A DNA stretch of 24,710 nt, from positions 1 to 24,710 of the IMG/VR virus record IMGVR_UViG_3300040807_001652. The stretch is one strand, 5' to 3'. The notes under the pieces are model-generated. The model ran no database searches. It was not told the DNA's origin and worked only from the letters and a program-made list of their open reading frames with translations. The position numbers and the translations under genes are program-made. This DNA comes from a virus. Shown piece by piece: positions 10,354-18,927 of this stretch (its first letter is position 1; each line of letters starts with the position of its first letter).

Positions 10354-10490
10354 ATCCTGACATCGACATCTTCATGCGCGAGCTTGATGCAATCGTCGAT
10401 GAATACGAGCACGACTTCCACGTCAACATCAGCGACCTGCGTAATGCTCTTGTAGATTACGTGGAGGTGCTCGATGAGCTCAGACTCTGA
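10341..10490 (+). CDS. Small acidic helical protein, unknown
   Basis: 49 residues (MAKVNPDIDIFMRELDAIVD onwards), strongly acidic and probably all helix. It overlaps the endonuclease I stop by 13 nt and the primase-helicase start by 17 nt, so three genes are linked end to end. Its sequence also carries the GGAGG Shine-Dalgarno (10461-10465 region) of the next gene. The family is unknown. Confidence 0.65.
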   Translation: MAKVNPDIDIFMRELDAIVDEYEHDFHVNISDLRNALVDYVEVLDELRL

Positions 10491-12039
10491 GTTCGTACGT
10501 CACATCCCTTGTGACAATTGCGGTAGCTCAGACGCCAACAGTCTATACACTGATGGCCACACCTACTGTTTCTCATGTAACCATGTGACAAGCACAGAAG
10601 ACAGCGAGGCCCCATCTGAGGGCCTTGTTTTTTACTTTGGTGAGCATCGCGCATTGCGTGCTCGCAAGATCAGCGAAGAAGTCTGCCGTAAGTTCAACGT
10701 CAAGGTCGAGGGGCCTCACATAAGGTTCCCTTACACCGATGTAGCTGGCCGCGTTGTTGGCTACAAGGAGAAAGACCAAGAGAAGAACTTCAAGTGGCGG
10801 GGCAAGAACGCTGAGAAGCGCCTATTCGGCCAACAGCTCTTTGGTGGCGGCAAGAGAGTCGTAATCACTGAGGGCGAAATGGATGCGTTGTCTGTCTATC
10901 AGGCAATGCCCAAATGGCCAGTAGTCTCTATCTTCTCAGGAGCTAAGGGAGCCCGCAAGGATCTCGAGCATCAGCTAACTTGGCTGATGGGCTTTGAGGA
11001 GATCGTTCTTCTATTCGACGCTGATGAACCAGGACAAGCTGCAACACTTGAGTGCGCTCAATTATTCCCACCAGACAAGGTTAAGATCGCTAGCCTTGGA
11101 GGATACAAGGATGCATCAGAGGCGCTGCAAGCTGTTGACGGTGAGGCGATCAGACAAGCTATCTGGAACGCCCAGAGCTACACCCCTAAGTCAATCATAT
11201 CAGGAGCTGAGATCTATGATCTTCTCAGGGCTCCAATGGTTGGCAGGGACTGCTCTTGGCCTTGGACTGCTATCGATACCGTTACTGGTGGCATCAGGCT
11301 CAAGGAGCTTATCACCATCACAGCCGGTACCGGAGCTGGTAAGAGCACCCTTTGCGGGGAACTCGCCCAGCATCTTATCGCTCAAGGCTTTAAGGTCGGC
11401 TACATCGCATTAGAAGAGTCAGTACAACGTACTGGTCTCAGACTGATGACTGTTGTTGCCAACAAACCACTACACCTCGACAACACCCTAGATGAACGAG
11501 ACTTTAAGCGCGCTTTTGATCTCAGCGTTGGTTCTGGGAATTTGTATCTTCGAGACGGCTTTGGCTCTATCGATCCTGACGTGATCCTGAACGATATGCG
11601 CTACTTAGTTAAAGCTAAGGGCGTGCAGTTCTTGATCCTCGATCACCTCAGCATCTTATTGTCTGGTACCTACCATGATGATGAGCGCAAGATGATCGAT
11701 GTCACTATGACCAAGCTCCGCTCATTCGTAGAGGAGACTGGTGTTGGCTTGTTCCTTATTTCTCACCTTAGGAGGGGTCGAGATGATCGAGGCCATGAGG
11801 ATGGGGCTCAGATCTCTATGTCGCAGCTTCGAGGTTCACATTCAATCTCGCAGCTTTCAGATGTTGTCATCGGCCTGGAACGGGCTGTATCTACCGGAGC
11901 AGACTGTGCAAGACTCAGAGTACTCAAAAACCGTTTCAATGGAGCCACAGGAGATGCAGGAGAACTCATCTACAACAAACAAACAGGAAGAATGCAAGCT
12001 GCTGAGGTACTACCATCTATCGACACTACCGATTTCTAA
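10474..12039 (+). CDS. Primase-helicase (T7 gp4-like)
   Basis: Bifunctional replisome protein that makes RNA primers and unwinds DNA as a ring. The 521 residues contain, in order: a zinc-binding domain with C13, C16, C32, C35; a TOPRIM primase core with ITEGEMDALS (E133) and LLFDADEPGQ; and a RecA-like helicase with Walker A GTGAGKS (K290), Walker B LILDHLS, the switch region ISHLRRG and QLRGSHSISQLSD, which matches the T7 segment DLRGSGALRQLSD. The C-terminus SIDTTDF is acidic and ends in Phe, like the T7 tail that docks on the polymerase. GGAGG lies 6 nt upstream of the ATG. Confidence 0.97.
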   Translation: MSSDSEFVRHIPCDNCGSSDANSLYTDGHTYCFSCNHVTSTEDSEAPSEGLVFYFGEHRALRARKISEEVCRKFNVKVEGPHIRFPYTDVAGRVVGYKEKDQEKNFKWRGKNAEKRLFGQQLFGGGKRVVITEGEMDALSVYQAMPKWPVVSIFSGAKGARKDLEHQLTWLMGFEEIVLLFDADEPGQAATLECAQLFPPDKVKIASLGGYKDASEALQAVDGEAIRQAIWNAQSYTPKSIISGAEIYDLLRAPMVGRDCSWPWTAIDTVTGGIRLKELITITAGTGAGKSTLCGELAQHLIAQGFKVGYIALEESVQRTGLRLMTVVANKPLHLDNTLDERDFKRAFDLSVGSGNLYLRDGFGSIDPDVILNDMRYLVKAKGVQFLILDHLSILLSGTYHDDERKMIDVTMTKLRSFVEETGVGLFLISHLRRGRDDRGHEDGAQISMSQLRGSHSISQLSDVVIGLERAVSTGADCARLRVLKNRFNGATGDAGELIYNKQTGRMQAAEVLPSIDTTDF

Positions 12040-12043
12040 CGTA

Positions 12044-12322
12044 GTGCTCATCATAGATGAGAGCCCTGAGGGTGAGCTTCTCAAAAGTATCCGCAACTAC
12101 GTGCTGCAGGATACCGACTACCACCAACACCTACCACTGCTTGAGGCGCAGTATCACAAGTCCATCCTCGTCTCGTACGAGGTGCACAAGTTCCCAACAA
12201 TTCTGCTCTTAGACAAGTACAACCAAGAGGTGTTCCGCCTTGAGGGCACTGCTTGCCTGAATGCAGACAGGCTTATCTCAATCGTCCACCATCTGGAGTA
12301 CAACTGTGATTCTAACCTTTGA
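12044..12322 (+). CDS. Thioredoxin-fold-like protein without CxxC
   Basis: 92 residues from GTG 12044, five bases after the primase-helicase stop. The pattern fits a small thioredoxin fold: first strand VLIID, a helix, a strand around SILVSYEVH, the FPT motif (residues 50-52) with the presumed cis-proline, strands TILLLD and EVFRLEG, and a final helix. The catalytic CGPC is missing; the matching place reads ESPEGE. The only cysteines are near the C-terminus. Its position directly upstream of, and 17-nt overlapping with, DNA polymerase recalls T7, whose polymerase needs host thioredoxin as processivity factor without using its redox activity. Assignment is from eye alignment; no ATG or Shine-Dalgarno supports the start. 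Confidence 0.6.
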   Translation: MLIIDESPEGELLKSIRNYVLQDTDYHQHLPLLEAQYHKSILVSYEVHKFPTILLLDKYNQEVFRLEGTACLNADRLISIVHHLEYNCDSNL

Positions 12323-14069
12323 CATTGAGACCAATGGCCTTGTACGTACTTTCGATCGTATCCATTGTCTGGTTATTCAGGACGTTGAGACTGGTGAGGT
12401 CTATCGATTTAATGATGAGCCTGACTCGAAAGAGCGGAACATCAACGTAGGTATCAACGAGCTTCTGATGGAAGCCGATGAGATCTGGGGCCACAACATC
12501 GTCAACTTCGACATCCCGGCTATCCAACGCCTCTACCCCTACTTCAAGGAGATCGAGGCTAAGATCTACGACACCCTGATCCTGTCCCGCCTGTTCTTCA
12601 CGGACATCCTTGACCGGGACCTGGGTAGCAAGCCACGGGACATGCCCCCTAACCTCTATGGCCGTCACAGCCTGGAGAGCTGGGGATACCGACTCAAGTT
12701 CCGCAAGGGTGAGTTCGGTAAGACCTGCGACTGGCAGGTGTACAGCCGTGAGATGGAAGACTACTGTGAGCAGGACGTACGTGTAACGACCAAGCTCGTG
12801 CAGATGTTCCGCCCCAAGGTCAAGCTCTATGCTGATCCCATTCAGCTGGAGCACGAATGCCAGCGCATCATGGCTGAGCAGGAGCAGTCTGGCTACCCTT
12901 TTGACATTGAGGCTGCGCAGCGCCTGGATAACAAGCTGCGTACGGAGATCGAGAAGCTCTCGGACGAGATGACTTCGAAATACGTCTTCGTACAAGGCGC
13001 AGAGTTCACCCCGAAGAGGGATAACAAGAGACAGGGCTATGTTGCTGGTTGCCCTTTCACGAAGCTCAAGGACTTCAATCCTGGCTCTCGTGATCACATT
13101 GCTTGGATCTTCACCACCCTCCATGGTCACACATTCACAGAGCTTACTGAAACAGGCAAAGCAAAGATCGACGACACCGTGTTACGGGCTGTTGGTCACC
13201 CAGATGCAGACAAGTTCGCCCGCATCATGGAGCTTCGGAAGTTTCTGGGCCTTTTGTCGGAGGGAGATAACAGCTGGCTTAAGCTTGTTGAAAGTGATAA
13301 CCGGCTCCATCATTCGTGTATTTTAAACACTGCCACAGGACGCAATGCCCACAACCGACCCAACCTCGCACAAGTCCCAAGCGGACACGAATACCGAGAG
13401 CTCTTTAATCCCGGACCTGGAAGACTTCAAGTCGGCAGTGATGCAAGTGGCTTGGAGTTACGCTGCCTTGCTCACTATCTGGCTCCTTACGATGGCGGGG
13501 CTTTCGGCAAGGAACTACTTGAGGGAGACATCCACACAAAGCTTGCAGAGATCTACGGCACCGATCGGAAGAACGGTAAGACCGTAACCTACTGCATGAT
13601 CTACGGCGGCGGTAACGCCAAGCTGGGCCTGGCAGCAGGCGCTAGTAAGGCCAAGGCTGTCTCTCGTGGTAAGGCTATCCGAAAGGCTGTTATGGACGGT
13701 CTTACAGGTTTCAAGGAACTGATGGACGCTGTGTCCAGTAAGGCTGAGAGCGGACAACTCAAGGGCCTGGATGGCCGCATCATCAGGATCAAGAAGCCAC
13801 ACGCTGCCCTCAACTACCTACTGCAAAGCGCTGGAGCTGTCATCTGCAAGAACTGGGTGGTCAACATGAACGGATACTTCAAGGGTATGGATGTCCAGCA
13901 CATGGCTTTCGTACATGACGAGGTGCAGTTGTCGGTTGACCCCAAGGATCTCGAAGATGTCACCAAGTACCTACACCAATCAATGACTGATGTCCAAACC
14001 AAATTCAACTTCCGAATCGCTCTTGAGTGCGAAGTCGTTAGCGGAGCAAATTGGGGAGACACCCACTAA
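12306..14069 (+). CDS. DNA polymerase, family A (T7 gp5-like)
   Basis: Replicative polymerase with 3'-5' exonuclease. From GTG 12306 (GGAG 7 nt upstream), 587 residues; a longer frame from ATG 12261 would push residues before the conserved start FDIET. Exonuclease: D6/E8 and EQDVRVT. Polymerase motif A SDASGLELRCLAH (D379), O-helix RKNGKTVTY with R421, K425, Y429, and motif C VHDE (H537/D538). The O-helix residue equivalent to E. coli Pol I position 762 is Tyr, as in T7. Compared with T7 (704), most of the thioredoxin-binding insertion between the thumb and YVAG is missing (about 19 instead of 55 residues). Confidence 0.97.
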   Translation: MILTFDIETNGLVRTFDRIHCLVIQDVETGEVYRFNDEPDSKERNINVGINELLMEADEIWGHNIVNFDIPAIQRLYPYFKEIEAKIYDTLILSRLFFTDILDRDLGSKPRDMPPNLYGRHSLESWGYRLKFRKGEFGKTCDWQVYSREMEDYCEQDVRVTTKLVQMFRPKVKLYADPIQLEHECQRIMAEQEQSGYPFDIEAAQRLDNKLRTEIEKLSDEMTSKYVFVQGAEFTPKRDNKRQGYVAGCPFTKLKDFNPGSRDHIAWIFTTLHGHTFTELTETGKAKIDDTVLRAVGHPDADKFARIMELRKFLGLLSEGDNSWLKLVESDNRLHHSCILNTATGRNAHNRPNLAQVPSGHEYRELFNPGPGRLQVGSDASGLELRCLAHYLAPYDGGAFGKELLEGDIHTKLAEIYGTDRKNGKTVTYCMIYGGGNAKLGLAAGASKAKAVSRGKAIRKAVMDGLTGFKELMDAVSSKAESGQLKGLDGRIIRIKKPHAALNYLLQSAGAVICKNWVVNMNGYFKGMDVQHMAFVHDEVQLSVDPKDLEDVTKYLHQSMTDVQTKFNFRIALECEVVSGANWGDTH

Positions 14070-14421
14070 GAGGTACCTGAACTGCAGGCACTGTGGGTAT
14101 GAGACTGCCCCATCTAGGTGGTCTGTCAGAGAAAAAAGATGGAGGCACACATCTGAGTGTCAGGCTTGTAGAGACTTCAAACACAAGTATGGCTTCAATC
14201 TAACCCACGAGGATAGGGCAATACTAAACGCTGAGCCCTACTGCGGTATTTGCCAGGCAACCGATAAGCTACACATAGATCATTGTCACGCCACCAACAA
14301 GATACGCGGCTACCTATGCAGCAACTGCAACACCTCCATCGGGCTACTGAACGAGGAAGTGTTCAGGCTCGCTAAAGCCATCGTATACCTCACCAAACAC
14401 AATGACCCTCCTACTGATTGA
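13990..14421 (+). CDS. HNH/endonuclease VII-type nuclease
   Basis: 143 residues from ATG 13990. The C-terminal half has the endonuclease VII pattern: CGICQ, then LHIDHCHATNKIRGYLCSNCN, in which DH-CH and two C-x-x-C pairs form the zinc-bound beta-beta-alpha metal site. The N-terminal half adds another possible zinc knuckle (CRHCGYE ... CQAC). Such nucleases cut branched DNA (T4 gp49) or act as homing enzymes. T7 also carries HNH genes in this area (gp5.3). The start is uncertain: ATG 13990 overlaps polymerase by 80 nt, TTG 14023 is an alternative. The end overlaps the exonuclease by 20 nt. Confidence 0.8.
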   Translation: MSKPNSTSESLLSAKSLAEQIGETPTKRYLNCRHCGYETAPSRWSVREKRWRHTSECQACRDFKHKYGFNLTHEDRAILNAEPYCGICQATDKLHIDHCHATNKIRGYLCSNCNTSIGLLNEEVFRLAKAIVYLTKHNDPPTD

Positions 14422-16594: not shown

Positions 16595-16718
16595 AGACTG
16601 TGTAGAAATACATGTCGGGGAAGAGATCGGCTGGGTCTCTTCCTTTCACCTAGTCGATCCCAAAGTCAACCAACTCAACCAAGCATATGTCGTTTCCCAA
16701 GCAAGCACCCTGCGCTAA
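16524..16718 (+). CDS. Small protein between thyX and RNR, unknown
   Basis: 64 residues from ATG 16524; a shorter version would start at TTG 16563. It bridges the 92-nt gap between the two enzymes, overlapping thyX by 71 nt and RNR by 32 nt. The middle segment, EDCVEIHVGEEIGWVSSFHLV, has an alternating pattern like a small beta protein. The part in the gap has the same codon style as the neighbours, which favours real coding. The start remains open and the function is unknown. Confidence 0.5.
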   Translation: MQSVESSLESTQLLPPQPEIITHEDCVEIHVGEEIGWVSSFHLVDPKVNQLNQAYVVSQASTLR

Positions 16719-18927
16719 TCCCGTCTACTTCCGCACCTACTCACGCCGCACAGAGAACGGTAAAGAGACATGGCAAGACACCGTTGAGCGGTGTGTATCT
16801 GGCCTTACCCGTGTGGGACACCTGGAAGAAGATGAAGCTGCTCTGATCCGTGAGCAGATGTCTGAGCTCAAGGCTCTACCCTCTGGCCGATGGCTGTGGG
16901 TAGGTGGCACCCCCTGGATTGAGCAGCAGAAGAACTTCAGTGGTGCCTACAACTGCACCAACACTGACCTGGAAGATCTCGAGGCCTTCAGCCTGCAGAT
17001 GGAGCTCCTGATGATGGGCTCTGGTACCGGAGCAATCATTGAGCCCCGCACCTTTGAGAAGCTCCCAGTAGTGAGACAAAACTTTACATTAGATATCCTG
17101 GAGAAAATTGGGGAAGAAGAAAACCCAGTTGAGCACACGATTGCGGCCATTAGCAAGGAAGAAGCCATTGTTACCGTTGGCGATTCACGAGAAGGTTGGT
17201 GTGACGCCTTCCTCTCACTCCTTAATCTAGCTTGTGGCCCGGACAAGATCGAAAAGGTAGTAATCGATCTATCACATGTCCGGGCTCCTGGCTCACCCAT
17301 TGCCGGCTTCGGTGGGGTGGCCAACCCAGTTAAGCTCGCCCATTTCTATCGACGTGCTGGAGAAATTCTCTCCAAGGCACACGGTCGTAAGCTCACTTCT
17401 GTTGAGTGCTGCCTACTGCTAGATGAATCGAGCCTCGCCGTTGTGGCAGGTAACGTTCGCCGTTCTGCTGGCATGCGCCAGTTCCACGGTGACGATGAAG
17501 CAGCAGCAGTAGCAAAAGACAATCTCTGGCAACAGGGCGAAGATGGTAAGTGGCGGATTGATCCTGAGCGTGATGCGCTACGCATGGCTAATCACACTCG
17601 GGTATTCCACGCCAAGCCTACGTTTGACGAGGTTAAAGCTAGTGTTACCAAGCAATTCTATTCAGGAGAAGGTGCTATCCAGTACGCCCCCGAGGCTATT
17701 GCTCGGAGTAGCGTTGACTTCCTGGATACTGACGACAAGAAGCGCCAGTTCCTCTATCTCTACGAGGCATCCCCAGATCTCGCAGCAGGATACCTCGAGG
17801 ATCTAGGTGCTGACCACATTGAACACCGCATGGGTCGCTACGGCTTGAACCCCTGTGGTGAAATACTTGGCAAGGACTTCCACTGTAACCTTGCTGAGAT
17901 CCACTTGAACCAGCTGGATCCCAATGACTGGGATGCCCAGCATCGTGCGTTCAAGGCAGGAGCAATTGCAGCCGCAGCGTTGCTCCATCATGAGTTCAAA
18001 GTTCCCCGCTATCAGTTCAGCCGTGAAGTCGATCCCATCATTGGTGTCAGCTTCACTGGTCTCTTCGACTTCTTCGTGAAGGCATTCGGAGCAGGCTGGC
18101 TTGATTGGTGGGAGAAGGGCCGCCCCAATGGTCCTGAAGGTCTTGGCTATCGCATTGTCGAGAGCAACTACCTTGACTTCTGGCGTCGTACCGTAGAGGA
18201 GACAGTCACTGAGTACTGCAACCGCCACGGACTGCGCATCCCCAACCGTTTCACCACCGTACAACCTGCCGGAACCAAGTCCCTTCTCACCGGGGCTGCT
18301 CCTGGCTGGCACCCGCCCAAGGCAGCACGGTTTATCCGTCGCATCACCTTTGCCAAGAACGATCCTGTCGCTCTGGCTTGTGAGGCTTACGGCTACAAGA
18401 TCATTCCGTCTCAGTCAGATCGTGACGAGACAGGTGCTCTGCTGGACGATCCTCGTGATCCCCGCTGCACTGAGTGGCTTGTAGAGATCCCTGTCCAGAC
18501 ACCCTGGGCTGATCTTCCTGGCTGCGACCAGTACAACATTAACGGCTTTGGAATCAACGCACAGTGGGACTTCTACATGCAAGTGCAGAAGTATTACACA
18601 ACCCACAACACTTCAGCAACGCTGGAGTATCGCGAGCACGAGATCGAAGAGTTGTCTACCCTCATCCACAAGGCTATCCAAGCTGATGAAGGATACATCT
18701 CTGCCGCCTTGCTGGCTCGTTTCGATGCCAATGAAACATTCCCTCGCCTCCCGTTTGAACCTATTGATCGGGAGACATACGAGCAGCTGGAACGTGATGT
18801 ACTGGAGCGTCGTATCACTGACGACTTTGCTCTGGCTATGTCAGTTTATGGAACTGCCCACGAGGCCAGTGGCCCAGCGGCTTGCGACGGGGATAAGTGC
18901 CTCTTCTCTGAGAAGAAACCTCAATGA
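16687..18927 (+). CDS. nrdJ: Ribonucleotide reductase, class II (B12-dependent, monomeric)
   Basis: Reduces ribonucleoside triphosphates to dNTPs using adenosylcobalamin, with a single subunit, as in Lactobacillus RTPR and in marine cyanopodoviruses. The 746 residues include NCTN (C90), NPCGEI with N388, thiyl C390 and E392, the second redox cysteine in FHCNLAE (C400), and the C-terminal CX4C pair C733/C738, which regenerates the active site in RTPR. The C90, C390, C400 set corresponds to RTPR C119, C408 and C419. Because it does not need oxygen or a second subunit, the phage depends on host cobalamin. It sits between the replication and virion genes, as in P-SSP7-like phages. Confidence 0.94.
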   Translation: MSFPKQAPCANPVYFRTYSRRTENGKETWQDTVERCVSGLTRVGHLEEDEAALIREQMSELKALPSGRWLWVGGTPWIEQQKNFSGAYNCTNTDLEDLEAFSLQMELLMMGSGTGAIIEPRTFEKLPVVRQNFTLDILEKIGEEENPVEHTIAAISKEEAIVTVGDSREGWCDAFLSLLNLACGPDKIEKVVIDLSHVRAPGSPIAGFGGVANPVKLAHFYRRAGEILSKAHGRKLTSVECCLLLDESSLAVVAGNVRRSAGMRQFHGDDEAAAVAKDNLWQQGEDGKWRIDPERDALRMANHTRVFHAKPTFDEVKASVTKQFYSGEGAIQYAPEAIARSSVDFLDTDDKKRQFLYLYEASPDLAAGYLEDLGADHIEHRMGRYGLNPCGEILGKDFHCNLAEIHLNQLDPNDWDAQHRAFKAGAIAAAALLHHEFKVPRYQFSREVDPIIGVSFTGLFDFFVKAFGAGWLDWWEKGRPNGPEGLGYRIVESNYLDFWRRTVEETVTEYCNRHGLRIPNRFTTVQPAGTKSLLTGAAPGWHPPKAARFIRRITFAKNDPVALACEAYGYKIIPSQSDRDETGALLDDPRDPRCTEWLVEIPVQTPWADLPGCDQYNINGFGINAQWDFYMQVQKYYTTHNTSATLEYREHEIEELSTLIHKAIQADEGYISAALLARFDANETFPRLPFEPIDRETYEQLERDVLERRITDDFALAMSVYGTAHEASGPAACDGDKCLFSEKKPQ

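Follow-up and report, generated by a model that had tools for sequence, protein, structure and literature searches.

What does the short open reading frame between the primase-helicase and DNA polymerase genes of a marine cyanobacterial virus encode, and what could its product do there? The initial annotation had described a thioredoxin-like protein without redox cysteines and had proposed that it acts as a clamp for the neighboring polymerase. We examined the origin of the protein, the fate of its cysteines, its likely partner, and the true start of its gene.

Identity of the gene between helicase and polymerase

The window comprises a complete IMG/VR record (24,710 bases). On its plus strand, Pfam and PHROG models identify a primase-helicase gene of the T7 gp4 type (10474–12039, C-terminus ...TDF) and a T7-type family A DNA polymerase gene (12306–14069, 587 amino acids, GTG start at 12306). 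Between them lies a GTG-initiated ORF of 92 codons plus stop (12044–12322, plus strand), encoding a thioredoxin-like domain. The ORF, stop codon included, extends 17 nt into the polymerase gene, as the initial annotation had stated; its FPT (cis-proline), TILLLD, and EVFRLEG motifs were likewise reproduced exactly. In the region of this gene, the window is almost the same as a longer contig, IMGVR_UViG_3300040808_000776. The window polymerase is closest to those of clade-A cyanopodoviruses (60% identity to S-CBP2, 57% to SS120-1 and to Syn5, and 56% to P60), and the small gene occupies the position of the clade-A thioredoxin. At its 3′ end, the polymerase gene overlaps an Endonuclease VII gene (13990–14421; Pfam 4.6e-15) by 80 nt in another frame, an arrangement also present in SS120-1 (L009, 4194–4610). 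The polymerase of clade-B cyanopodoviruses is apparently split into exonuclease and polymerase ORFs overlapping in different frames (L015, 2495–4254, and other matches). In one record of S-CBP42 (KC310805; L003, 4201–5963), the polymerase reading frame is broken, perhaps by a sequencing error; a second record of the same phage, EF535234, is intact.

Scans with polymerase queries yielded many syntenic orthologues of the small gene. A match in a 122-kb contig (L008, 52% over 25 amino acids) was dropped as a chance antisense hit near the genes of a different phage. At the same locus are the thioredoxins of Syn5 (gp25, NCGPC), P60 (gp15, DCGPC), and S-CBP42 (gp50, ECQPC) and the annotated thioredoxin of S-TIP28 (gp27); that clade-A relatives encode their own thioredoxin has been noted in the literature (PMC9381782, PMC2784036). 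Of 54 aligned family members, 46 matched Pfam Thioredoxin_2 and 47 matched PHROG 22 ("thioredoxin domain"), and synonymous changes dominate, so that the ORF is more than a chance reading frame. The profile evidence divides: the family profile matches thioredoxins at about 1e-6, but the window protein alone falls below the Pfam cut-off (E = 0.029), and its identity therefore rests on orthology and fold. PF00085 had no match in the window protein or in the long near-identical contig; with neither that match nor CxxC, the protein does not qualify as an active thioredoxin enzyme.

Modeling of the 92 residues alone by AlphaFold2 (pLDDT 81) gave E2–4, H8–21, E32–34, H39–44, E52–56, E62–67, and H74–91, the beta-alpha-beta-alpha-beta-beta-alpha order of the thioredoxin fold. 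The closest PDB structures to this model are thioredoxins, with modest E-values (best 1.8e-3) and TM scores of 0.6–0.7. The model, the fold search, and orthology thus agree with the fold initially annotated, and the cis-proline (PT) and the family homology are both present. The histidine of a KENH-like motif typical of the family, before helix 2, is largely conserved and is kept in the window protein without the cysteines (H38, 12155–12157). We regard fold and ancestry as firm: the protein descends from the clade-A cyanopodovirus thioredoxin that bears CxPC and whose gene lies between those for helicase and polymerase. It is a redox-dead variant of that thioredoxin, kin by descent and position rather than by the CxPC motif.

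Where the relatives have CxPC, the window protein reads SPEGE, and the absence of CxxC that had been annotated stands. CxPC is retained in most relatives, and the rows that lack it fall into two groups on the polymerase tree: a 14-row clade (support 99; the window, L020, L022, S-CBP2, L154, L157, L214–L218, L220, L221, and L227) and L026, which lies within a CxPC group. This topology indicates that CxPC was lost twice, independently. The motifs that replaced it vary (SPEGE, SRRGK, EDLIS, HLPS, KHQH, and SEQQAS), and in L227 and L241 a single cysteine lies close to this position, again without CxxC. Searches for a second thioredoxin yielded nothing in S-CBP2 or in those cysteine-free genomes, long or complete, that were tested, and SS120-1 (46,997 bases) has no phage thioredoxin at all. 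A literature search limited to open-license papers found none describing a cysteine-free phage thioredoxin beside a polymerase.

The polymerase hairpin and a non-redox role

Given the loss of CxxC, the function that is retained must be non-redox. In T7 polymerase, thioredoxin is a structural part that acts as a clamp without requiring its redox activity (PMC3997047). Simulation of that complex gave the contacts E319–K90, E330–R73, T327–I75, V329–R73, and P325–A93, with the T7 residue named first and that of thioredoxin second, and showed basic residues in the backward loop 272–290 meeting DNA (PMC5984650). The window polymerase was modeled with a pLDDT of 91, and its best PDB matches are T7 gp5. 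It lacks T7 261 to about 302, roughly half of the binding loop, including the DNA-contacting backward loop, and keeps a hairpin equivalent to T7 ~303–333 (residues 226–258, 12981–13079, plus strand; predicted strands 228–234 and 251–256). Some 33 residues thus remain of the 71–76-residue loop of T7. Retained within them is the contact strand (T7 320–331), which reads YVAGCPFTKLKD in the window polymerase versus YVAGAPYTPVEH in T7 and corresponds to modeled strand 251–256. Its YVAGCPFTKL matches T7 YVAGAPYTPV, the stretch that contacts thioredoxin I75, R73, and A93 in the simulation (PMC5984650). Retention of the hairpin makes a docking site plausible. Essentially the same hairpin is found in relatives without a phage thioredoxin (SS120-1, L027, and a large outgroup); it may therefore serve host thioredoxin or none.

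T252 of the window polymerase (13059–13061) aligns with T7 T327. This residue is Cys in 32 of 43 CxPC phages, and Thr in 6 of 7 cysteine-free and 18 of 20 thioredoxin-less ones, a switch that is suggestive of contact with thioredoxin. As proof of coevolution it was rejected: there are four independent contrasts, many other columns do equally well, and shared ancestry could explain the pattern.

Operon position, the use of E. coli thioredoxin by T7, and the retained hairpin make a role as polymerase clamp plausible by analogy. The pairing is weakened by the missing T7 segment, by the hairpins of thioredoxin-less relatives, and by an exchange of alleles. The polymerases of the window and L020 are 97% identical in amino acids (dS 0.37) and their thioredoxins 64% identical (dS 1.46), a divergence so far above that of the polymerase that allele exchange by recombination is indicated; since the alleles have been swapped on nearly the same polymerase, the pairing is not tight. 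These same observations, one polymerase type with two very different thioredoxin alleles and a hairpin that persists without phage thioredoxin, would fit a redox-dead adaptor that serves the replication module in some other non-redox way, for example by binding helicase, single-stranded DNA-binding protein (SSB), or a host protein, as would the fact that the gene touches and overlaps the helicase gene as well. The adjacent position and the example of T7 favor the polymerase instead, and we consider the adaptor unlikely, though deserving of weight. The polymerase clamp is the best guess. The further proposal of the initial annotation, that a phage-encoded clamp would free the phage from the host protein, is not supported; it proved not to be specific to this gene, as a CxPC thioredoxin is already encoded at the locus in most clade-A relatives.

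The translation start and the helicase gene

In all CxPC orthologues checked, the gene starts with an ATG 4–10 codons before strand 1, overlapping or near the helicase stop; the window has no such ATG. At the old start position the window has GTG, L020 has GTC and then TTG, L154 has TTG, and L157 and S-CBP2 have nothing usable. L214–L222 have an initiation codon (ATG or GTG) immediately ahead of strand 1, for which the Shine-Dalgarno sequence is weak or absent. L026 has TTG at the old start place and no overprinted half. Because the GTG is GTC in L020, lacks a Shine-Dalgarno sequence (anti-Shine-Dalgarno ΔG +0.3 kcal/mol), and is preceded by a frame open to ATG 11783, translation probably does not begin at GTG 12044. 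A Shine-Dalgarno-like AGGAGG (11770–11775, plus strand), formed by two in-frame AGG arginine codons of the helicase, lies 7 nt before ATG 11783; its ΔG of −10.7 kcal/mol compares with −10.6 for the start of the helicase itself. The probable full gene, judged from this site and the open frame, spans 11783–12322 on the plus strand. Its product would be 179 amino acids long, not 92, with about 87 residues overprinted on the 3′ end of the helicase gene in the +1 frame, followed by the thioredoxin-like domain.

In the main cysteine-free clade, the +1 frame is open for 93–102 codons into the helicase gene, compared with ~34–62 expected from synonymous codon shuffling. The shuffling P values of individual main-clade sequences ranged from 0 to 0.0425 and, given the shared ancestry of the lineages, are not fully independent. 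An open frame with a Shine-Dalgarno-preceded ATG or GTG 83–92 codons before the helicase stop was present in all 15 distinct main-clade sequences; none of 65 CxPC sequences had an open frame with a start of such strength. When the open frame was not demanded, 23 of the 65 control CxPC helicases also had a Shine-Dalgarno sequence and start, which are therefore not diagnostic by themselves; it is the stop-free frame (15 of 15 versus 0 of 65) that carries the signal separating the groups. Synonymous-site suppression in the overlap was uneven: it was strong in L154/L157 (1/86 versus 30/108) and absent in window/L020, and CxPC control pairs varied in both directions. Between the window and L020, the overprinted N-terminal half showed no sequence constraint. 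The idea that it forms a basic, DNA-binding extension was rejected, its charge (−3 in the window) being equal to that of codon-shuffled controls.

The same open frame could instead be entered by programmed +1 frameshifting, which would yield a helicase-thioredoxin fusion. The thioredoxin frame is +1 to that of the helicase and open over the last ~100 codons, and the window, L022, L154, and L214–L216 carry the tandem in-frame AGG AGG, which is +1-shifty in E. coli. This tandem is CGG AGG in L020 and CGG AGA in S-CBP2 and is absent in L217–L222, whereas the Shine-Dalgarno sequence and start are present in 15 of 15 main-clade sequences. Frameshifting is thus improbable, and an internal start inside the helicase gene appears likely. 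The annotated ORF is real, but its extent is probably too short. Similar annotations are probably truncated too, such as that of S-CBP2 gp21, where the annotated GTG 3983 (L001) would remove the first strand and the frame and Shine-Dalgarno sequence favor ATG 3668 (L001).

Selection and comparison with known systems

Having lost its start codon and cysteines, and being absent from SS120-1 and L027, the gene might be decaying with no function left. The substitution rates speak against this: dN/dS for thioredoxin was 0.13 for window/L022 (dN 0.025, dS 0.19), 0.24 for window/L020 (dN 0.34, dS 1.46), and 0.03 for L154/L157; there are no stops, and the new start region is kept open. Decay is very improbable, and the cysteine-free gene is, by these rates, under purifying selection. 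The window also encodes a class II (B12-dependent) ribonucleotide reductase (16687–18927, plus strand; Pfam RNR-II_ins_dom 4.5e-08, RNR_Alpha 2.2e-07), another possible client of a phage thioredoxin. The lack of CxxC already rules out for the window form a role as its reductant, which the CxPC relatives could fill. Such a role also sits poorly with SS120-1, which has the reductase and no phage thioredoxin, and is close to untenable.

The best explanation as a whole, to which we give about an even chance, is a non-redox structural accessory subunit of the polymerase made from an internal start. A clade-A CxPC thioredoxin has lost its redox cysteines while purifying selection kept the gene; the protein would use its cis-proline face to dock on the thumb hairpin that survives from the thioredoxin-binding loop of T7, and would steady the polymerase on DNA; and translation from the internal Shine-Dalgarno/ATG in the helicase gene would probably give a product of ~180 residues whose N-terminal half is overprinted. 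More tentatively, and at somewhat less than even chance, the protein may be a dedicated non-redox replisome subunit of ~180 residues, its N-terminal half gained by overprinting the helicase gene after the start and the cysteines were lost, with the cysteines lost again in L026.

The redox-independent thioredoxin clamp of T7 polymerase is a textbook oddity, usually demonstrated by cysteine mutation in the laboratory. Natural versions without CxxC have seemingly arisen at least twice, in phages whose replication genes include a thioredoxin of the phage itself, and allow a direct test of whether phage thioredoxins can have a non-redox role. In this marine cyanobacterial virus, a redox protein has apparently taken on an entirely structural role, probably within the replication machinery; the move of the start into the helicase gene, if true, would be a clear case of gene extension by overprinting.

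A phage thioredoxin at the helicase-polymerase locus is already known; what is new is the apparently relocated start in the main cysteine-free clade. The clade-A thioredoxins of Syn5, P60, S-CBP42, and S-TIP28 share locus, fold, and cis-proline motif with the window protein and can be aligned with it, but have CxPC and an ATG by the helicase stop, both of which it lacks. Its closest described relative is S-CBP2 gp21, a hypothetical protein at the same place, likewise without CxxC and with the same relocated start region; it differs in reading EDLIS at the site and in being annotated from GTG 3983. The thioredoxins of the N4-like roseophages DSS3Phi2 and EE36Phi1 are also phage-encoded and have been proposed as replication-module accessories (PMC2784036), but are host-like, 105 amino acids long, and from another phage group. 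E. coli thioredoxin, the T7 processivity factor, has the fold in common with the window protein; it differs in being host-encoded, in having CGPC, and in binding a loop of 71–76 residues, only half of which survives in the window polymerase.
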